Of a DNA stretch of 64,000 nt, positions 4,555 to 14,350 are shown one piece after another; position 1 is the first letter of the stretch, and the number at the start of each line of letters is the position of its first letter. The notes below the pieces were generated by a model. The model was given only the letters and a program-made list of their open reading frames with translations, was not told the DNA's origin and ran no database searches. The translations under genes were made by a program, and so were the position numbers. The DNA is from Candidatus Sulfopaludibacter sp. SbA3 (GTDB lineage: Bacteria; Acidobacteriota; Vicinamibacteria; Vicinamibacterales; UBA2999), in NCBI GenBank assembly GCA_945903265.1, contig CAMDNQ010000001.1, positions 186,001 to 250,000 of the forward strand, written 5' to 3'.

Positions 4555-4584
4555 TTGACACTCTCAAAAGCTCTACGTTAGAGT
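4555..4584 (+). promoter_or_regulatory. Promoter of trp leader and aro-trp-tyr operon
   Basis: A perfect TTGACA at 4555-4560 is followed by an 18-base spacer and TAGAGT at 4579-4584. A 13-base palindrome, CTCTA-N3-TAGAG at 4571-4583, overlaps the -10 box and could be an operator. The expected start near 4591 leaves only about 8-14 bases before the leader-peptide start codon, so the leader is nearly leaderless. Confidence 0.65.
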
Positions 4585-4604
4585 GCTGATTCCGTTTGAT
4601 GTCC

Positions 4605-4697
4605 ATGTCGCGCCGCTTTAGCTCCTTCGTGTCGCCGAACTACGCCAGCTACTGGTGGTGGTATCGGACTGCGACTGAGGGGGCGGCCGGCGTCTAA
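4605..4697 (+). CDS. trpL: trp operon leader peptide
   Basis: A 30-codon reading frame (an in-frame ATG at 4599 would add two residues) holding three consecutive TGG Trp codons at 4653-4661. Aromatic codons flank them: Phe at 4617 and 4626, Tyr at 4641, 4650 and 4662. The TAA stop (4695-4697) sits in the loop of a small hairpin, GCGTC-TAA-GACGC. It lies between the promoter and a terminator and is followed by aro/trp genes, exactly as in classical trp attenuation: ribosomes stall on the Trp codons when charged tRNA-Trp is scarce, leaving the downstream antiterminator strand free. No Shine-Dalgarno is visible. The peptide itself is unlikely to have another function. Confidence 0.9.
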   Translation: MSRRFSSFVSPNYASYWWWYRTATEGAAGV

Positions 4698-4738
4698 GAC
4701 GCGAACACAGATTTAGTTCAGACCCAACGCCCCTTCAG
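4675..4738 (+). promoter_or_regulatory. trp attenuator: antiterminator pairing
   Basis: CTGAGGGGGCG at 4675-4685 can pair with CGCCCCTTCAG at 4728-4738 over 11 positions (ten Watson-Crick, one G-U). The second strand is also the left arm of the terminator, so the two structures exclude each other. The first strand starts 13 bases after the last Trp codon: a ribosome stalled on the Trp run would leave it free, whereas one that reaches the stop codon at 4695 would cover it. The geometry fits transcription attenuation. Confidence 0.85.
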
Positions 4739-4768
4739 CCACCAGGTTGAAGGGGCGTTTTTGTTTTT
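4726..4768 (+). terminator. Intrinsic terminator of trp leader (attenuator)
   Basis: A perfect 12-base stem (AACGCCCCTTCA at 4726-4737 with its complement at 4748-4759) and a 10-base loop, followed by a T-tract with one G to 4768. The right arm holds AAGGGG (4750-4755), the only ribosome-site-like sequence before aroD (ATG 4772), so folding would also hide the aroD ribosome site. Confidence 0.92.
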
Positions 4769-4771
4769 GTG

Positions 4772-5644
4772 ATGAATAGCGCGCTGCTCTGCGAAACCGT
4801 GACCGGCAAGACGATGGGCGAGCTGATTGCCGCCCGCGATGCGGCGACGTCCGCCGACATGGTCGAACTGCGGCTGGACGGAGTGGCCCGGTGCGACGTG
4901 GCGCGGGCGCTCGAGGGGCGGAGCCGCCCCGTCATCGTCACCTGCCGGCCGATCTGGGAAGGCGGGCAGTTCGACGGCGCCGAAGAAGATCGCCGGGAAC
5001 TGCTGGGACAAGCCCTGAGTGGCGGCGCGGAATACGTCGATGTCGAGTGGCGGGCGCTGTCGGGGGGCGGCGGACGAGGGCTGCTGGATCGGGTACTCGA
5101 CGCGGACCGGAAGCGGACGATTGTGTCGTCGCACGACTTCGAGGGGTTGCCCGCGGATCTCGGGGCCCGCGCGGCGGCCATGCGCGCCACTGGTGCCGCG
5201 GTGATCAAAGTGGCTGTCGCGGCTCATCGCCTGTGCGACACGCTCGGATTGATGGAGATTGCGAACGGCCGCGGCGATGCGGTGGTGATCGGAATGGGCG
5301 ACGCGGGCGTGCCGACGCGGCTCCTGGCGTCGCGCTTCGGATCGCGGTGGACGTACGGCGGTCCCGCGGTAGCGCCAGGGCAGATGCCGGTGAGCAGGAT
5401 GGTGGGCGACTTCCGGTTTCGGGATGTAGGCCCGCGCACGGCGCTCTACGGCATTGTCAGCGGCAGCGGGTCGTCGTCACGGATGCCGGCGGCGCTGAAT
5501 GCGGCGTTCGCGGCGGCGGGCATGGACGCCGTCTGCGTGCCGCTCGCCGGAGCTGATGACGCCGACGTGCGGGCGTTCAGTGACGCGCTGGGCTTTGCCG
5601 GCGTAGTGAACTTAAAGGATGTCGATGCGCATCACCACGTTTGA
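4772..5644 (+). CDS. aroD: Type I 3-dehydroquinate dehydratase with truncated AroE-like tail
   Basis: A 290-residue protein. The first 210 residues are a type I dehydroquinase (shikimate pathway, dehydroquinate to dehydroshikimate): Glu-Leu-Arg-Leu-Asp near 33, catalytic His in Ser-Ser-His-Asp-Phe near 121, Schiff-base Lys in Val-Ile-Lys-Val near 146, and the Ala-Pro-Gly-Gln loop near 202. From about residue 215 the sequence follows the substrate-binding half of shikimate dehydrogenase (Leu-Tyr-Gly-Ile-Val, then Leu-Asn-Ala-Ala-Phe-Ala-Ala-Ala-Gly). It stops where the catalytic Lys motif would come, and the His-Ser-x-Ser-Pro motif is degenerate. It looks like the remnant of an AroDE fusion. 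A GTG at 4769 is an alternative start. It overlaps trpE by 20 bases. Confidence 0.93.
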   Translation: MNSALLCETVTGKTMGELIAARDAATSADMVELRLDGVARCDVARALEGRSRPVIVTCRPIWEGGQFDGAEEDRRELLGQALSGGAEYVDVEWRALSGGGGRGLLDRVLDADRKRTIVSSHDFEGLPADLGARAAAMRATGAAVIKVAVAAHRLCDTLGLMEIANGRGDAVVIGMGDAGVPTRLLASRFGSRWTYGGPAVAPGQMPVSRMVGDFRFRDVGPRTALYGIVSGSGSSSRMPAALNAAFAAAGMDAVCVPLAGADDADVRAFSDALGFAGVVNLKDVDAHHHV

Positions 5645-7091
5645 GGAGTTTCGTGACCTGGCGCAGCGGGGCACCTTCGTGCCCGTCTACAAGGAGATCG
5701 TCGCGGATCTCCTGACGCCGGTGTCCGCCTTCCTCAAGGTTGCCGAGCATGCGCACTACTCGTTCCTGCTCGAATCGGTCGAAGGCGGCGAGCATGTGGG
5801 CCGCTACTCGTTTCTTGGCAAGGACCCGTTCCTGATCGTCCGGTCGCGCGGCGGGAAGACGATTGTCGATCGGTCGGGAGAGACGACGGCGTCTGACCGG
5901 CCGTTCATCGACGTCGTGCGCGAGCTGATGGCCGGATTCCATGCCCCGTACGTGCCGGGACTGCCGCGCTTCACGGGCGGAGCGGTCGGGTATCTCGGAT
6001 ACGACGCGGCTGCCTGGTTCGAGCCGGTGACGCTGCAGGCGGGCGCTGACGTCGAAGATGAAGCCGGTTTGATGCTGTTCGACACGGTCCTGGCGTTCGA
6101 CCACGTGCGGCACCGGATCCTGATCATCGCGAACGCGCGTATCACCGGCGACGACGACCTCGAATCGCTCTACCAGTTTGCCCTCGCGAAGATCGGCTTC
6201 GTGGAGCGGGAACTCGATCGGACGCTGTCCAAACCCACCCGGCCGCCGTCCCGGCCTGTGGAGATGACATCGAACGTTCCGCGCGAGCGGTTCGAGGAAA
6301 TGGTGCGAACGGCGAAGGAACATATTGCCGCCGGCGACATCTATCAGGTCGTCCTCTCGCAGCGGTTCGAGACGGCGTTCGAGGCCGATGCGTTCACCGC
6401 GTATCGCGCGCTGCGCCACGTCAATCCGTCGCCGTACATGTACTTCCTCCGCCTCGGGGAGCGGGCGATCGTCGGATCGTCGCCGGAGATGCTCGTGCGG
6501 GTGGAAGGGAAGCGGATCGAGACGCACCCGATTGCGGGGACGAGGCCGCGTGGTGCCGATGAGGCCGAAGACGTGCGGCTTGGCGAGGAACTGAAGGCCA
6601 GCGAGAAGGAGCGGGCCGAGCACGTGATGCTCGTCGATCTGGGCCGCAACGATCTCGGCCGCGTGTCGACCTACGGCAGCGTCAAGGTGCCGACGTACAT
6701 GGCGCTCGAGCGGTATTCCCACGTCATGCACCTGGTTTCGATTGTCGAAGGGGAGTTGTCCGACCGTCAGGATCGGCTCGACGCGCTCGTGGCCTGTTTC
6801 CCGGCGGGGACGGTCTCGGGGGCGCCCAAGGTGCGCGCGATGGAGATCATCGCGGAGCTCGAGAACCGGCGCCGCGGGGTGTATGCGGGAGCGGTCGGGT
6901 ATCTTGACTTCGCCGGCAACCTCGATTTCTGCATCACGATTCGCACGGTGATCATCGAAGGGGGCCGTGCCTACGTGCAGGCGGGTGCGGGCATCGTGGC
7001 GGATTCGGATCCGGCGGCGGAATATCAGGAGACGCGCGACAAGGCGAGAGCGGTGATCAAGGCCCTGGAGCTGGCACAGGAGGGGCTCTGA
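5625..7091 (+). CDS. trpE: Anthranilate synthase component I
   Basis: A 488-residue chorismate-binding subunit that, with TrpG, turns chorismate and glutamine into anthranilate. The N-terminal Leu-Leu-Glu-Ser motif (residues 48-51) is the tryptophan feedback site of the family. Catalytic-domain signatures are present: Pro-Ile-Ala-Gly-Thr-Arg-Pro-Arg-Gly, Glu-His-x-Met-Leu-Val-Asp-Leu-Gly-Arg-Asn-Asp, Gly-Thr-Val-Ser-Gly-Ala-Pro-Lys and Cys-Ile-Thr-Ile-Arg-Thr. The ATG at 5625 is preferred over 5619 because AAAGGA (5614-5619) is correctly spaced from it. The start lies inside aroD, and the stop overlaps the trpG ATG by one base. Confidence 0.97.
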   Translation: MRITTFEEFRDLAQRGTFVPVYKEIVADLLTPVSAFLKVAEHAHYSFLLESVEGGEHVGRYSFLGKDPFLIVRSRGGKTIVDRSGETTASDRPFIDVVRELMAGFHAPYVPGLPRFTGGAVGYLGYDAAAWFEPVTLQAGADVEDEAGLMLFDTVLAFDHVRHRILIIANARITGDDDLESLYQFALAKIGFVERELDRTLSKPTRPPSRPVEMTSNVPRERFEEMVRTAKEHIAAGDIYQVVLSQRFETAFEADAFTAYRALRHVNPSPYMYFLRLGERAIVGSSPEMLVRVEGKRIETHPIAGTRPRGADEAEDVRLGEELKASEKERAEHVMLVDLGRNDLGRVSTYGSVKVPTYMALERYSHVMHLVSIVEGELSDRQDRLDALVACFPAGTVSGAPKVRAMEIIAELENRRRGVYAGAVGYLDFAGNLDFCITIRTVIIEGGRAYVQAGAGIVADSDPAAEYQETRDKARAVIKALELAQEGL

Positions 7092-7657
7092 TGCTGCTCG
7101 TCATCGATAACTACGATTCGTTCACCTACAACCTCGTGCAGTATTTCGGCGAGCTCGGGGCGGACATCCGCGTGCATCGCAACAACGAGATCACGATCGA
7201 CGAGATCGAGGCGATGAAACCCGAGCGGATCGTCATTTCGCCGGGACCCGGACGGCCCGAGGACGCGGGCATCACCATCGACGTCATTCGACGGTTCGGT
7301 CCAACGCACCCGCTCCTCGGCGTGTGTCTGGGTCATCAGGCGATCGGCATGGTGTACGGCGGGACCGTCTGCCGTGCGAGCGCGCCGATACACGGCAAGA
7401 CGTCGCAGATTGTCCACGACGGGAAGGGCGTCTTCCGCGGTCTGAGCGATCCGTTCGAGGCGGGTCGCTATCACTCGCTCGTCATCTCGAATACCGATGT
7501 GCCCGCCGCCCTCGAAGTCACGGCACGTACGCAGGAAGACGGGATCATCATGGGGGTTCGGCACCGCACGCATCCCGTTCACGGCGTGCAGTTCCATCCG
7601 GAGTCGGTGCTGACCGGCGAAGGAAAACAGATTCTCGAGAACTTCCTGAAACTCTGA
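7091..7657 (+). CDS. trpG: Anthranilate synthase glutamine amidotransferase component
   Basis: A 188-residue class I glutamine amidotransferase supplying ammonia to TrpE. The catalytic triad is visible: Cys79 in Gly-Val-Cys-Leu-Gly-His-Gln, and His169/Glu171 in Phe-His-Pro-Glu-Ser. The N-terminus has the TrpG/PabA signature Asp-Asn-Tyr-Asp-Ser-Phe-Thr-Tyr-Asn. It could also serve a p-aminobenzoate synthase, as no separate pabA is present in the window. A strong AGGAGG precedes the ATG, and it overlaps trpE and trpD by one base each. Confidence 0.96.
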   Translation: MLLVIDNYDSFTYNLVQYFGELGADIRVHRNNEITIDEIEAMKPERIVISPGPGRPEDAGITIDVIRRFGPTHPLLGVCLGHQAIGMVYGGTVCRASAPIHGKTSQIVHDGKGVFRGLSDPFEAGRYHSLVISNTDVPAALEVTARTQEDGIIMGVRHRTHPVHGVQFHPESVLTGEGKQILENFLKL

Positions 7658-8679
7658 TGTTCACATCGCTGCTCGAAAAGCTCGTGCGCCACGAAGACCT
7701 CACGACCGAGGAGGCGGCGGCCGCCATGGGCGAGGTCATGAAGGGGCGCGCGACCCCGGCCTCGCTCGCGGGGCTCCTCTCGGCGCTGGTCATGAAGGGC
7801 GAGCGGCCGCCCGAAATCGTCGGCTTCGCACAGGCGATGCGCGAGCATTCGGTGAAGCTGGCGGCGCCTCCGGGCGACGTGTTCGATACGTGCGGGACGG
7901 GTGGCGACCGATCCGGCACCTTCAATATCTCGTCGGCGGCGGCCCTGGTCGTCGCCGCCGCGGGCGTCAAGGTCGCCAAGCATGGCAATCGGTCGGTGTC
8001 GAGCCGCTGCGGCAGCGCCGACGTCTTCGAGCAGCTCGGCGTCAACATCGCCGCGCCGGCGCCGGTCGTCGAGCGGAGCCTCCACGACAGCAACATCGCG
8101 TTCTTTTTTGCCCAGACGTTCCATCCGTCGATGAAGCACGCAGCGCCCATCCGCAAGGAGCTCGGCATCCGGACGGCGTTCAACCTGCTCGGGCCGTTGA
8201 CGAATCCGGCGGGGGCCCGGCGGCAGATCATCGGCGTGCCGCGGCCGGAGCTGGGCGACCTCCTCGCGCGCGCGCTGCTCATGCTGGGGACCGAGCGCGC
8301 CTGGGTCGTGCACGGGCTCGACGGGATCGACGAGATTTCGACGACCGGCTACACCAAGGTGCTCGAATGCCGTGACGGCGCGATTACGTCGTTCTACATC
8401 CATCCGGCGGAGTTCGGACTGCCCAAGGCCGCCGCCGGCGACCTGCAGGGTGGCGACGCCGTGCACAACGCGGCGATGATCTCGGACGTGTTGTCCGGCA
8501 AGAAAGGCGCGCCTCGCGACGTCGTCCTCCTCAATGCGGGCGCCGCGCTCCTCGTCGCCGGCCGCGTGAAGAATATGCGTGAGGGGATAGCGCGGGCGGC
8601 CGAGGCGATCGACAGCGGCGCCGCGCGCGCGACGCTCGACGCGATGGCGCGCGCCTCACACGGAAGTGCGACGGTATGA
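7657..8679 (+). CDS. trpD: Anthranilate phosphoribosyltransferase
   Basis: A 340-residue enzyme transferring phosphoribose from PRPP to anthranilate. It has the PRPP-binding Cys-Gly-Thr-Gly-Gly-Asp (residues 79-84), the glycine-rich Lys-His-Gly-Asn-Arg-Ser-Val-Ser-Ser segment near 108, and the late Leu-Gly-Pro-Leu-Thr-Asn-Pro motif. The open frame extends upstream inside trpG, but the ATG at 7657 gives the family length and overlaps the trpG stop by one base. It ends in an ATGA overlap with trpC. Confidence 0.96.
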
Positions 8680-9467
8680 GCACGCCCGACCTCCTGCGGA
8701 CGATCGTCGCCGCCACCGAGCGCATCACGGCGGTCAGGCGCGAGCGCGAGCCGCAGGCCACCCTGGAACAGCGCGCCGCGAGCGCGGCACCCCAGGGACC
8801 GCGCTTCGAGGCAGCGCTTGGCGCTGCGGGCCGGGTCAACGTGATTGCCGAGTGCAAGCGGCGGTCGCCGTCGAAAGGCGTCCTGGCGGCTGTCTACGAT
8901 CCCGCTGCGATTGCACGGAAGTACGAGGAGGGCGGCGCCGCCGCGATTTCTGTCCTGACGGAGCCGACGTTCTTCGACGGCTCGCTTGATCATCTTCGCG
9001 CGGTCAGGGCGGCGGTTGGACTGCCGCTCCTGCGAAAAGACTTTATCGTCGACGAATACCAGCTGTTCGAGGCGCGCGCCAACGGCGCGGACGCGGTCCT
9101 GTTGATCGTGGCAGCACTGGCGCAGAGCGATCTGGTTCGGCTGCAGTCACGCGCATGGGAGCTGGGGCTGGCGGCGCTCGTGGAAGTGCACGACGAGGAG
9201 GAGCTGTCGCGAGCGTTGGATGCGGGCGCCCGTGTTGTGGGTGTCAACAACCGGAACCTGCGCACGCTTGCCGTCGACGTCGATGCTTCCCATCGCATTG
9301 CGCAGAAGCTCCCGCGCGAGGTGATTGGCGTGAGCGAGAGCGGGCTGCGGTCGCGAGCCGACGTCGATCGTCTCACCGCGGCGGGGTATCGGGCGTTTCT
9401 GATCGGCGAGCGGTTCATGACGGACAAGGATCCGGCCGGGGCGATTCAGCAACTCGTCGCATCGTGA
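8676..9467 (+). CDS. trpC: Indole-3-glycerol phosphate synthase
   Basis: A 263-residue TIM-barrel enzyme that closes the indole ring. Active-site residues appear in order: Glu59 and Lys61 (Ala-Glu-Cys-Lys-Arg-Arg-Ser-Pro-Ser), Lys121 (Leu-Arg-Lys-Asp-Phe), then Val-Asn-Asn-Arg-Asn-Leu and Ser-Glu-Ser-Gly-Leu. It is separate from trpF rather than fused as in enterics. It starts in an ATGA overlap with trpD and shares one base with trpF. Confidence 0.96.
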
Positions 9468-10096
9468 TGTTTCTCAAGATTTGCGGGATTACGCGGCTCG
9501 AGGACGCGCTGCACGCCGCAGGGCACGGCGCCACGGCGCTGGGATTTGTATTCTGGCGGCCGAGCCCCCGTTACGTGGAGTCGGCGGAGGCCGCCCGCAT
9601 CATCGCGGCGCTGCCGGACAGCGTCACCGCGGTTGGCCTCTTCGTGAACGAGACGCCGGAGCGGATACGTGAGGTGGTAGCGGAGACTGGCATCACCACC
9701 GTGCAGCTTCATGGCGATGAACCCGCCAGCTACGCGGTGTCGGTGGCGGCGCCCGTGCTGCGCGCCATCAGCCTGGATCGCGCCGGCGAGACGACGAGCT
9801 GGCCGCCGGAGACGACATTCCTGGTCGATGCGGCCGATCCGGTTCGGCGGGGTGGGACCGGGACCACCATCGATTGGACGAGCGCAGCGGCGCTGGCTCG
9901 CGGCTGCCGGCTGGTGCTGGCCGGTGGATTGACGCCGGAGAACGTGGCCGAGGCCATTGCAGTCGTCGAACCGTATGGCGTCGACGTATCGTCGGGCGTG
10001 GAGGTTGCGCCCGGCATCAAGAACGCGGATAAAGTGACGCGCTTTCTGGCAAGCGCACGGAGTGCATTTGAGCGACACGAACACCATCACCGCTGA
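9467..10096 (+). CDS. trpF: Phosphoribosylanthranilate isomerase
   Basis: A 209-residue TIM barrel catalysing the Amadori rearrangement between TrpD and TrpC. It begins Leu-Lys-Ile-Cys-Gly-Ile-Thr with the catalytic Cys at residue 6, followed by Gly-Leu-Phe-Val-Asn-Glu, Val-Gln-Leu-His-Gly-Asp-Glu, and a late Val-Asp-Val-Ser-Ser-Gly-Val-Glu phosphate loop. The ATG at 9467 overlaps the trpC stop by one base; the longer open frame upstream lies inside trpC. The C-terminus is His-rich (His-Glu-His-His-His) only because it is read through the start of trpB in another frame. Confidence 0.95.
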
Positions 10097-11306
10097 TCGT
10101 CCGGTCTTCGGCCGGCGCGACCCGGACGCGCGGGGCTACTTCGGCGCCTATGGCGGCCGGTTCGTCCCCGAGACGCTCGTCGCGCCGATCGAGGAGCTGA
10201 CCGCCGGCTATTTCGCCGCCCGGGCGGATGAGTCGTTCCGCAAGGAACTGGATCACCTGCTGCGGCATTACGTCGGGCGGCCGACACCGCTCTATGAAAC
10301 GCGCCGTCTCGCGGCGTCGACCGGTGTCCGGGTGTTCCTCAAGCGCGAGGACCTCACGCACACGGGCGCGCACAAGATCAACAACTCGATCGGCCAGGCG
10401 CTGCTCGCCAGGCGCATGGGCAAGAAGCGCGTGGTTGCCGAAACCGGCGCGGGGCAGCACGGCGTCGCGACAGCCGCGGCGTGCGCGCTCCTCGGGCTGG
10501 AGTGCGACGTCTACATGGGATCCGAGGACATGCGCCGCCAGGCGCTGAACGTCGTCCGCATGGAACTGCTCGGCGCGCGCGTCAAGCGTGTCGATGCCGG
10601 CAGCTGCACGCTCAAGGACGCGATCAACGAGGCGATGCGCGACTGGGTCACCAACGTCGCCGACACGTATTACCTGCTTGGGTCGGCGCTGGGGCCGCAC
10701 CCGTATCCGCTCATGGTGCGCGAGTTCCAGTCGGTCATCGGCATGGAAGCGCGCGTCCAGATCCTGGAGCAGGCCGGCCGGCTCCCTGATGTCGTCGTGG
10801 CCTGCGTCGGTGGTGGCAGCAACGCCATCGGCATGTTCGACGGCTTTATCGACGACGCGGAAGTCCGACTGATTGGTGTCGAGGCGGGAGGCGAGAAGAT
10901 CGCGCCCGGCCGCCATGCCGCGCGGTTTGCGGGCGGGCCTGGGGGCGGTCTCACTGGCGTCCTCCACGGCACCCGCACGTTCGTGCTTCAGGACGAAGCA
11001 GGGAATATCGAGCTCACGCATTCGATTTCCGCCGGACTGGACTACGCGGCGGTCGGACCGGAGCACGCCTGGCTGCGGGACCTGGGACGAACGGAATACG
11101 TGAACATTTCGGACGCCGAGGCGCTCGAGGGCTTCCAGGCGCTCGGGCGGCTCGAAGGCATCCTTCCGGCGCTCGAGTCCGCGCATGCGGTGGCGCACAC
11201 GATGCGCCTGATCAAGGACCTCCCGGACGGCAGCATCGTGCTGGTCAATCTGTCCGGGCGGGGCGACAAGGATGTGCAGTCAGTGGTGGAGGCGCTCAAG
11301 AAATGA
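10068..11306 (+). CDS. trpB: Tryptophan synthase beta chain
   Basis: A 412-residue PLP enzyme condensing indole with serine. PLP Lys103 lies in His-Thr-Gly-Ala-His-Lys-Ile-Asn-Asn, the indole tunnel motif Glu-Thr-Gly-Ala-Gly-Gln-His follows, and the phosphate-binding Gly-Gly-Gly-Ser-Asn is near 235. The start is placed at TTG 10068 because GGAG at 10059-10062 is 5 bases upstream; a GTG at 10062 overlaps that site. The gene overlaps trpF by 29 bases and trpA by 4 (ATGA). Confidence 0.95.
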
Positions 11307-12112
11307 AGGTCGCAGAAGGGCGCCTCGCCGAGGCCTTTGCGCGCATCCGGGCCGACAAGGCTGGTCCCGGCCTGGTGACCTACATCACGGCCGGCGACCC
11401 GGATTTGAAGCGGACCGAGGGGATCCTCCTGGCGCTGCAGCGGGGCGGGGTCGACGTGCTCGAAGTGGGGGTGCCCTGGTCGGACCCCCTCGCAGACGGC
11501 CCGGTGATCCAGCGTGCCACGGAACGGGCTCTGGCGGGCGGGACGAACCTCTCAGGCGTCCTCGACATGCTCGGGCGCTTACGCCCGGAGCTCCGGGTGC
11601 CGATAGTTCTCTTCAGTTACGCCAATCCGATCCTGCGCATGGGCGCCGAGCGGTTTGCGGACCGGGCGCGGGAGGCGGGCGTCGACGGCGTGCTGGTCCT
11701 CGACCTGCCGATCGAAGAGGCGGGCGAATTCCGGGGCCTGATGACGACGCGGGGGATTGATACAATCCTTCTGCTCAGTCCGACGACATCAGACGCACGT
11801 CTCCGCGCGGCCGCGGGCCTCGGCAGCGGCTTTCTGTATGCCATTTCGCGGCTAGGCGTGACCGGCGCCCGCGACGCGGTGGCAGAAGGGGCGGAGGAGA
11901 TGGTCCGGCGGATCCGGTCGGTGAGCGCCCTGCCTATCGCCCTCGGGTTCGGCATCTCCAAACCGGAGCACGTTCGTGAAGTGGGCAAGTGGGCCGACGC
12001 CGCGGTGGTCGGGAGCGCCCTGGTCAACGTGATCGCGCAGGCGGCCGGCGTGGATCAGAACGGCGAATTGGATGCGCGTGTAGAGGAGTATGTGCGGTGG
12101 CTGAAGTCCTGA
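11303..12112 (+). CDS. trpA: Tryptophan synthase alpha chain
   Basis: A 269-residue TIM barrel that splits indole-3-glycerol phosphate. Catalytic Glu54 and Asp65 sit in [14 protein letters not shown], with the same 11-residue spacing as Escherichia coli Glu49/Asp60. It forms the channelled complex with TrpB, whose stop it overlaps (ATGA). Its end overlaps the GTG of the chorismate mutase gene by 16 bases. Confidence 0.96.
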
Positions 12113-12420
12113 CGAACATCGAAGAGCTGCGCAGCCGGATTGACGTCATCGACGATCAGCTCGTGCGCCTCCTGAACGTGCGTGTGGCGTGCGCGGTGGA
12201 GGTGGGACGGCTGAAGCACGAGGCCGGCCTGCCGATCTACCAGCCGGAGCGCGAGGCGCAGGTGTTGAACAGCGTGCGGAACTCGGCTACCGATCTGGCA
12301 GGTCCGCTGACCGCCGAAGCCCTGGTCCGGATTTTCGAGCGAATCATAGACGAGGCGCGGCGGGCCGAGCGCGCGGCCAGCGCAAGCGGCGATAGTCTCG
12401 GGACGTCGAAGGAAGAGTAG
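12097..12420 (+). CDS. Chorismate mutase, AroQ-fold, monofunctional
   Basis: A 107-residue all-helical chorismate mutase (chorismate to prephenate). Active-site positions of the AroQ fold can be followed: Arg in Leu-Arg-Ser-Arg-Ile-Asp, Arg in Leu-Leu-Asn-Val-Arg, Lys in Gly-Arg-Leu-Lys, and Arg-Glu in Tyr-Gln-Pro-Glu-Arg-Glu. It is a free-standing domain, not fused to prephenate dehydratase or DAHP synthase. The GTG at 12097 is chosen from GAGGAG 8 bases upstream; the open frame before it belongs to trpA. It sits directly upstream of DAHP synthase, with which small AroQ mutases form regulatory complexes in some bacteria; whether that holds here is inference. Confidence 0.92.
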
Positions 12421-12431
12421 GGAGAGCAATC

Positions 12432-13478
12432 ATGGTCGTTGTCATGGAAGAACGCGCCAGCGAGTCGCAGATCGACGCCGTCATTTCCCGGCTGATCGAG
12501 CTCGGCATGGACGTGCACCGCTCGTCGGGCGCGACGCGCACCGTGCTCGGCGTCGTCGGCGTCGAGAAAGTCGAGAAGGAAATGATCGAGATTCTCGACG
12601 GCGTCCACGAGGTGCTGCGCATCTCCGAGCCGTACAAGCGGGCCAGCCGCAGCTACAAGCCCGAGGACACCATCGTCACGATCGATGACGTCCGCATAGG
12701 CGGCGACGAAGTCATCGTGATGGCCGGCCCCTGCTCGGCGGAGACCGACGAGCAGTGCATGGCGACGGCCGCAGCGGTCAAGCGGGCGGGCGCCAAGATT
12801 TTCCGCGGCGGCGCCTTCAAGCCGCGCAGCTCTCCGTACAGCTTCCAGGGGCACGGTGAGAAGGGGCTGCAGATGCTGCGCCGGGCCGCCGACGCGCACA
12901 ACCTGAAGCTCGTCTCGGAAGTGATGGACGTCAGCCAGATCGAGGTGATCACGAAGTACTGCGACATCTTCCAGGTCGGCGCCCGGAACATGCAGAACTA
13001 CACGCTGATCCGCGAGCTGGGCTACGCGCGGAAGCCCGTGCTCCTCAAGCGCGGGATCTCCGCGACGATCGAGGAGTGGCTGCTCTCGGCGGAATACATC
13101 CTCGCCGGCGGCAACAACGACGTGATTCTCTGCGAGCGCGGCATCCGGACGTTCGAGACGGCGACGCGCAACACGTTCGACATTTCGGCGATCCCGGTGA
13201 TCAAGAAGCTCAGTCACCTGCCCATCGTGGCGGATCCGAGCCACGGGGCGGGACGGCGCGACATGGTGCCGCAGCTGGCGCGCGCGGCGGTGGCCGCCGG
13301 AGCCGACGGTCTGATCATCGAAGTGCACAGCGATCCCGATCGCGCGCTGAGCGACGGCGCCCAGTCGCTGTTCCCGGCGGCCTTCGATCGCCTGATGTCG
13401 GAGCTGCGGATCATCGCGCCGGCCATCGGCCGCAGCATCTGCCTCGAGGCTGTGGCGCGGCGCGGATGGGCACGATAA
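12432..13478 (+). CDS. aroF: DAHP synthase (type I, ferredoxin-like N-domain)
   Basis: A 348-residue 3-deoxy-7-phosphoheptulonate synthase, the first step of the shikimate pathway (phosphoenolpyruvate plus erythrose 4-phosphate). Residues 1-75 form a ferredoxin-like regulatory domain as in the Thermotoga-type enzyme, where it mediates Tyr/Phe inhibition. The barrel follows with Ala-Gly-Pro-Cys-Ser-Ala-Glu (metal-ligand Cys101), Arg-Gly-Gly-Ala-Phe-Lys-Pro-Arg, [12 protein letters not shown] (metal His), and a late Glu/Asp pair. It is preceded by AGGGAG. It shares its last 13 bases with tyrA. Confidence 0.95.
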
Positions 13479-14350
13479 GCGACCCTCCTTTTCAGCGAGT
13501 TGCCATCGTCGGCCTCGGCCTCATTGGCGGCTCGATCGCGTTCGCGGCGCGGAAGACCTGGCCGTCGATCCACGTCTGCGGGATCGATCGCGAAGCGGTC
13601 CTGCGCGAGGCGGTTGGCCGCCGCGCGATTGACCAATCCTCGACGGAGCTCGCCGCGGTCTCGGGCGCCGAACTCATCATCCTGGCCGCTCCGGTCCGGC
13701 AGAATCTAGCCCTCCTGCGGCAGGTGGCCGGCCATGCGTCGGCGACCGCGGTCATCACCGACGTCGGCGGCACGAAGCGCAGCATCGTTGACGCGGCCGC
13801 GACCCTTCCGGCGCCTGTGACGTTCATTGGAGGCCATCCGCTCGGCGGCGGCTCCCGCGGAGGCTTCGAGTTCGCCACCGCGAGCCTCTTCGCCCGCCGG
13901 CCCTGGATTTTCACCCCACCGGAACAAGGTTCCGTGGGGCCGGCGGTGCAGATCGATCAGGCGGTCGAGCGGCTGTCGGCATTCGTGGCGGGCATCGGCG
14001 CCCAGCCATCGGTCATGACCGCCGCGAAGCACGATCAGCTGATGGCGCTCCTGAGCCACCTTCCGCAGCTGGCGGTGACAGCGCTGATGGAGGTTGTCGG
14101 GACCACGGTGAACGGCGACATCCGTTTCGCGGGTCAGGGGCTGGTCGATACGACCCGCCTGGCGTCGAGTCCCGCGGAGGTCTGGCGTGACATCTGTTCG
14201 ACGAACGCGGACGAAATCGCCCGCGCGCTCGACCTGCTGATCGAGCGGCTCTCCGACATCCGGAGCGACCTGCAGCGCACCGAAATCATCGATTCGGTCT
14301 TCGATCAGGCCGCCCACTGGCGCGCTGAGCTGATGAAGGGTCGGGATTAG
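13466..14350 (+). CDS. tyrA: Prephenate dehydrogenase
   Basis: A 294-residue NAD(P)-dependent dehydrogenase giving 4-hydroxyphenylpyruvate for tyrosine. A Rossmann Gly-Leu-Gly-Leu-Ile-Gly-Gly-Ser begins near residue 14; the family motif Gly-Gly-His-Pro-Leu-Gly-Gly-Gly follows near 115, and a helical dimerisation domain with His-Asp-Gln-Leu near 185 comes later. No ACT domain is attached, so direct feedback may be weak. The ATG at 13466 lies inside the end of aroF. It is the last gene of the operon; 38 bases separate it from the next gene. Confidence 0.93.

Follow-up and report, generated by a model that had tools for sequence, protein, structure and literature searches.

The 64,000-nucleotide stretch of DNA analysed here (the window) very probably carries, ahead of aroD, a ribosome-mediated transcription attenuator of an aro-trp-tyr operon. 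This reading, in which we place high confidence and whose core, ribosome-mediated trp attenuation, had been advanced in a preliminary description of the same DNA, is supported by a leader open reading frame (ORF), tandem Trp codons, mutually exclusive and covarying stems, the spacing between codons and stems, the placement of the stop codon, and the position in front of aro and trp genes. The predicted leaders of the host and its relatives form an uncatalogued, widespread set of trp attenuators of a known type, new to the catalogues in that no Rfam match was obtained.

Leader, Promoter and Alternative Structures

Table 1. Predicted features of the attenuator and its operon (positions in the window).
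Feature	Position	Strand	Basis or remark
-35 element TTGACA	4555..4560	+	Sequence; TTGAC-N17/18-TANNNT arrangement in 88/102 leaders
-10-like element TAGAGT, best -10 candidate	4579..4584	+	18-bp spacer
Leader peptide ORF, MSMSRRFSSFVSPNYASYWWWYRTATEGAAGV	4599..4697	+	First ATG 4599, second ATG 4605, TAA 4695-4697
Control codons Tyr-Trp-Trp-Trp-Tyr (TAC TGG TGG TGG TAT)	4650..4664	+	Sequence
Strand 2, 5' strand of antiterminator, CTGAGGGGGCG	4675..4685	+	Encodes Glu-Gly-Ala of the leader peptide
Strand 3, common to antiterminator and terminator, CGCCCCTTCAG	4728..4738	+	Alignment, covariation
Intrinsic terminator hairpin, 15 bp, 4-nt loop	4726..4759	+	Folding, covariation
T-tract, TTTTTGTTTTT	4758..4768	+	Sequence
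aroD (3-dehydroquinate dehydratase, type I), opening gene of the predicted operon	4772..5644	+	Pfam PF01487; spacing in relatives
trpE-trpG-trpD-trpC-trpF-trpB-trpA-aroQ-aroF-tyrA, remainder of the predicted operon	5619..14350	+	Pfam; order conserved in relatives

The TTGACA element noted previously is part of a predicted sigma-70-like promoter (Table 1) whose arrangement recurs among the leaders of relatives, with a spacer of 18 bp in 63 of them and of 17 bp in 23; transcription would start near 4591. An in-frame ATG is present in 71 of the 88 promoter-bearing leaders; the median distance from the -10 element to this ATG is 17 nt, and only 1 of the 71 has an SD-like tetramer in front of it, so the leader mRNA would possess almost no 5' UTR. 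The leader ORF of the window, which likewise has no Shine-Dalgarno sequence and a very short predicted 5' UTR, comprises 32 codons from the first in-frame ATG; the length of 30 codons given previously holds if the frame is read from the second. The three tandem Trp codons (TGGTGGTGG, 4653-4661) are present as described, and the distance from the last of them to strand 2 again comes to 13 bases. The Tyr codons on either side, TAC at 4650 and TAT at 4662, had been overlooked.

Strands 2 and 3 form the antiterminator through 11 pairs, one of them G-U, exactly as originally proposed. The terminator does share a strand with the antiterminator and does end in a T-tract, as claimed, but the 12 pairs assigned to it were an undercount: 15 contiguous pairs were found (4726-4740 with 4745-4759, -28.2 kcal/mol). 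When the leader was folded with and without the ribosome-covered segment masked, as had been suggested, the minimum free energy (MFE) structure of the full leader contained the terminator every time, and the switch itself was not visible at equilibrium. The antiterminator is the MFE structure (-30 kcal/mol) only if strand 4, the 3' strand of the terminator, has not yet been made; the switch thus depends on co-transcriptional timing, as it does in E. coli, and this is the kinetic behaviour expected of an attenuator. With the stalled ribosome masked and strand 4 withheld, the antiterminator was the MFE structure in 102 of 102 leaders, a figure that is weak by itself given that it still formed in 47% of cases after strand 2 was shuffled. 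A 1:2 hairpin forms in the MFE structure of the window, and across the 102 leaders it does no better than in codon-shuffled sequences (mean z -0.32).

Within 4751-4772, the aroD start directly follows the T-tract and has no obvious Shine-Dalgarno sequence. Since the sole purine-rich segment close to this start is strand 4 (GAAGGGGCG), antitermination might also influence aroD translation.

The Predicted Operon

Pfam support was obtained for aroD, trpE, trpG, trpC, trpB, trpA, aroF, and tyrA, with trpD, trpF, and aroQ being assigned by gene order and similarity alone. The order aroD-trpEGDCFBA-aroQ-aroF-tyrA is retained in nearly all loci of relatives long enough to show it, and tyrA is found in every locus of the host's order long enough to show it; the aroQ-aroF-tyrA portion had escaped the preliminary description. 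By comparison, pheA lies outside the operon: in the host it is on a different contig, and wherever one contig holds both, the distance is tens to hundreds of kilobases. Relatives have about 600 nt more than the window between leader and trpE, a longer distance that implies an AroD-AroE fusion in those genomes; the aroD of the window seems to contain little of the AroE portion, and there is a stand-alone aroE at G000:C4:139020-139268.

Conservation in the Host's Order

Regions upstream of trpE were collected from 53 relatives, and nearly all of those with enough sequence display a Trp-rich leader ORF followed by a near-identical terminator. A covariance model (R1) built from 50 of these regions matches 143 of the 162 genomes of the host's order, nearly all with E below 1e-7, and this conservation provides the strongest evidence that the predicted attenuator is not a product of chance; homologous operons without the leader, which the preliminary description had regarded as telling against its reading, are therefore not the rule in the order. 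In the remainder of the class, R1 gave weak matches only (9 of 31 genomes). The host is indeed acidobacterial, a possibility raised in the preliminary description: its family includes a genome that is public under the name 'Acidobacteria bacterium' (MAG contig JAEUQR010000005.1). When both strands of the window were searched for an ORF carrying three Trp codons within five, with a terminator after it, no other place emerged, and the same search of 20 shuffled 64-kb windows returned no match.

The alignment of related leaders that had been proposed as a check revealed compensatory changes in both stems. In a plain MAFFT alignment, 94.1% of cells are paired in the terminator and 86.4% in the antiterminator, with 7 and 6 pairs, respectively, changed on both sides; sliding the partner strand by one to three columns as a control lowered pairing to 35-55% for the terminator and 42-54% for the antiterminator. 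Conservation is highest in strand 3, which is what pairing with two partners would require. The T-E-G-A motif conserved at the end of the leader peptide reflects the fact that strand 2 is coding sequence. Of 110 leaders, the 102 analysed are those picked out by a script, which missed the other 8.

The geometry of these leaders is equally regular. The last Trp codon lies a median of 12 nt from strand 2, Trp codons are most frequent 6 to 8 codons ahead of this strand, and the stop codon falls between -13 and +18 nt of the strand 2 end in 102 of 102 leaders. If the ribosome is given its generally known footprint, one halted in the cluster is predicted to leave strand 2 exposed, and one at the stop codon to cover it.

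A trans-acting role deserves mention at this point, namely that the terminator chiefly yields a short RNA or peptide, comparable to rnTrpL and peTrpL of S. meliloti, and that attenuation is secondary. The leaderless trpL of that organism offers a precedent (PMC7298713), and the very short predicted 5' UTR without a Shine-Dalgarno sequence is a further resemblance; nevertheless, neither the covariation of the antiterminator nor the stall spacing needs such a role, and the leader peptide is poorly conserved outside the Trp/Tyr cluster and the residues encoded by strand 2, all of which makes this explanation very improbable.

Proposed Mechanism and Other Tryptophan Sensors

In the attenuation mechanism that we favour, RNA polymerase would start near 4591, and translation of the emerging RNA, which would have next to no 5' UTR, would begin at 4599 or 4605. 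When charged tRNA-Trp (and perhaps tRNA-Tyr) is scarce, the ribosome would stall at 4650-4664 with its leading edge ending just before strand 2 (4675-4685), leaving this strand to pair with strand 3 (4728-4738) before strand 4 exists; no terminator would then form, and aroD-trp-aroF-tyrA would be transcribed. With ample Trp, the ribosome would proceed to the stop codon at 4695 and cover strand 2, strand 3 would pair with strand 4, and transcription would end at 4760-4768. The start site, the coupling, the stalling, and the response to Trp are all inferred from the nucleotide sequence.

The position of the terminator, taken alone, would also fit a different Trp sensor (a T-box, a TRAP-type protein, or a Trp repressor) that uses the terminator as its output, the short ORF being incidental. 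Such an arrangement appears exceedingly improbable in view of the constant spacing between Trp-codon cluster and strand 2 in 102 leaders and of the searches made for the sensors themselves. No Rfam family matched the window leader at the gathering threshold, and neither the T-box nor the Trp_leader (RF00513) covariance model did so even at E 10. Among 100 genomes of the order, TRAP (PF02081) was found in 0 and TrpR (PF01371) in 0 above the cut-off, with positive Bacillus and E. coli controls, respectively; with both proteins missing from these genomes, the attenuator becomes the main candidate for the Trp sensor.

Tyrosine Codons in the Control Zone

A Tyr or Phe codon occurs within or beside the Trp cluster in 96 of the 102 leaders, in patterns that include WWWY, YWWWY, WWYW, WRWYW, WYWYW, and WWYYGF. 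When the control zone (11-33 nt before strand 2) was compared with the codons further upstream in the same leaders, Tyr was found to be enriched about 12-fold (15.3% versus 1.3%) and Phe was not (4.7% versus 7.2%); hardly any His, Ile, Lys, or Asn codons occur in the zone. Of the 14 families that yielded an analysable leader, 12 have Tyr there, the exceptions being f4 and f7 (family f2 yielded no such leader). A comparable enrichment is seen in other acidobacterial families (19.2% versus 2.5%, in 15 of 17 leaders).

These codons raise the possibility of a dual-specificity attenuator, in which Tyr codons in the stall zone would confer a response to Tyr as well as Trp shortage, with one switch tuning the entire aro-trp-tyr operon and with mixed Trp/Tyr codons as a general design of trpE leaders in Acidobacteriota. 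The presence of tyrA in the operon and of pheA elsewhere lends this idea plausibility, as the Tyr codons of the leader match the gene content and Phe codons would not, a correspondence that is suggestive only. We advance it tentatively, at slightly below an even chance. The other reading, to which we give an even chance, accepts the attenuator and holds that Trp alone is sensed, the Tyr codons persisting for reasons of ribosome speed, peptide context, or history. It accords with the C. glutamicum aroR leader, which, with its Phe-Tyr-Phe codons, responds to the availability of Phe but not of Tyr (PMC11802643), and with Tyr-bearing leaders from several of the other-family acidobacterial genomes in which tyrA was not detected near the trp genes. 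It accounts less readily for an enrichment that is confined to Tyr and spans so many families, or for the codons chosen: TAT makes up 53% of Tyr codons in the control zone versus 27% in the operon genes that served as the codon-usage background. The occurrence of both TAT and TAC implies that a fixed RNA sequence is not what is being enriched. In addition, a change from Trp to Tyr requires two base changes, via a stop codon or Cys, so that the Tyr codons do not represent simple decay of Trp codons.

Leaders Elsewhere in the Phylum

With trpE located across the phylum, 40 upstream regions from outside the host's order were read, and approximately 15 of them have both a terminator and a leader ORF in which Trp codons cluster; being the product of a simple scan rather than a controlled survey, this phylum-wide count is a lower bound. 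In most of these regions, the 5' arm of the terminator is complementary to a segment lying just downstream of the Trp codons, and all but one lie within about 250 nt of trpE; the same scan gave only a handful of matches elsewhere in the 40 regions, even though most of each region is away from trpE. The design is the same as in the host's order, and the sequences are not alignable with the leader of that order. Of the weak covariance-model matches elsewhere in the phylum, several are ordinary terminators after other genes and were rejected as leaders.

Several individual loci are worth recording. In L137 and L138 (genomes G427 and G524), Trp-rich WWW leaders (AASWWWYRRVSGGRVAC and AANWWWCTHTTGGREAMP), each with a CCCTCCGG-type terminator, lie before a gene that shares about 33-34% identity with trpB and is followed in G427 by a DAHP synthase gene. 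Upstream of aroD in L277, L278, and L280 (G063, G061, and G059; family f16 of the same class), a short ORF with a His/Tyr-rich end (RRWRPVFRHHRYHP, RRWRPIFHRYHRT, and RIERWRPTFHHHRHYD) is followed by a GCCTCTTCAGGGAACCCTGAAGAGGC-type terminator and is possibly a leader of different or mixed specificity. Finally, the short ORFs that stand with strong terminators before trpE in L232 and L233 (G200 and G239; MMADGFFWRSDFKM and MAIFSFLRYGWRF) are candidate Phe-rich mixed aromatic leaders.

Significance and Comparison With Known Systems

A genome-wide survey of predicted attenuators found that almost none of those in Acidobacteria had associated functions (PMC2965389), in keeping with the earlier remark that such control is little described in this lineage. 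Our literature search found no paper joining Acidobacteria, attenuator, leader, and tryptophan biosynthesis, with an earlier prediction in older papers being possible. The leaders described here would place ribosome-mediated trp attenuation in a large, mostly uncultured phylum whose RNA-level control is almost unannotated, and the covariance model and its roughly 110 examples can be used for annotation.

Attenuation by several amino acids is familiar from the branched-chain operons. If the Tyr codons do sense tyrosine, it would extend to the Trp/Tyr branch, and the mixture of Trp and Tyr codons could make the leader a variant form of the trp attenuator.

The closest point of reference is trpL of E. 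coli (Rfam RF00513), which shares the tandem-Trp leader ORF, the strand common to antiterminator and terminator, the spacing of about 13 nt between stall codons and strand 2, and the location of the terminator ahead of the operon. Unlike trpL, the leader found here is longer, gave no match to the Rfam model, showed no 1:2 hairpin conserved beyond composition, carries Tyr among its Trp codons, belongs to an order without TrpR, and precedes an operon that adds aroD-aroQ-aroF-tyrA. The trpL of S. meliloti is similar in its consecutive Trp codons and in a leader ORF at or next to the transcript start (PMC7298713), but has no Tyr codons beside the Trp codons and belongs to another phylum with other stems. 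The aroR leader of aroF in C. glutamicum also places mixed aromatic control codons before a DAHP synthase operon; no Trp codons are reported in it, however, and the reported response is to Phe, with none to Tyr (PMC11802643). Lastly, the trp attenuators of actinobacteria (Corynebacterium and Streptomyces) resemble the present leaders in combining double or triple UGG codons with a terminator and antiterminator (PMC1262725), whereas their conserved triple is gGCC-rGCy-GGCC, as against GARGRGGC-GCCYCTTC-GAAGRGGC here.
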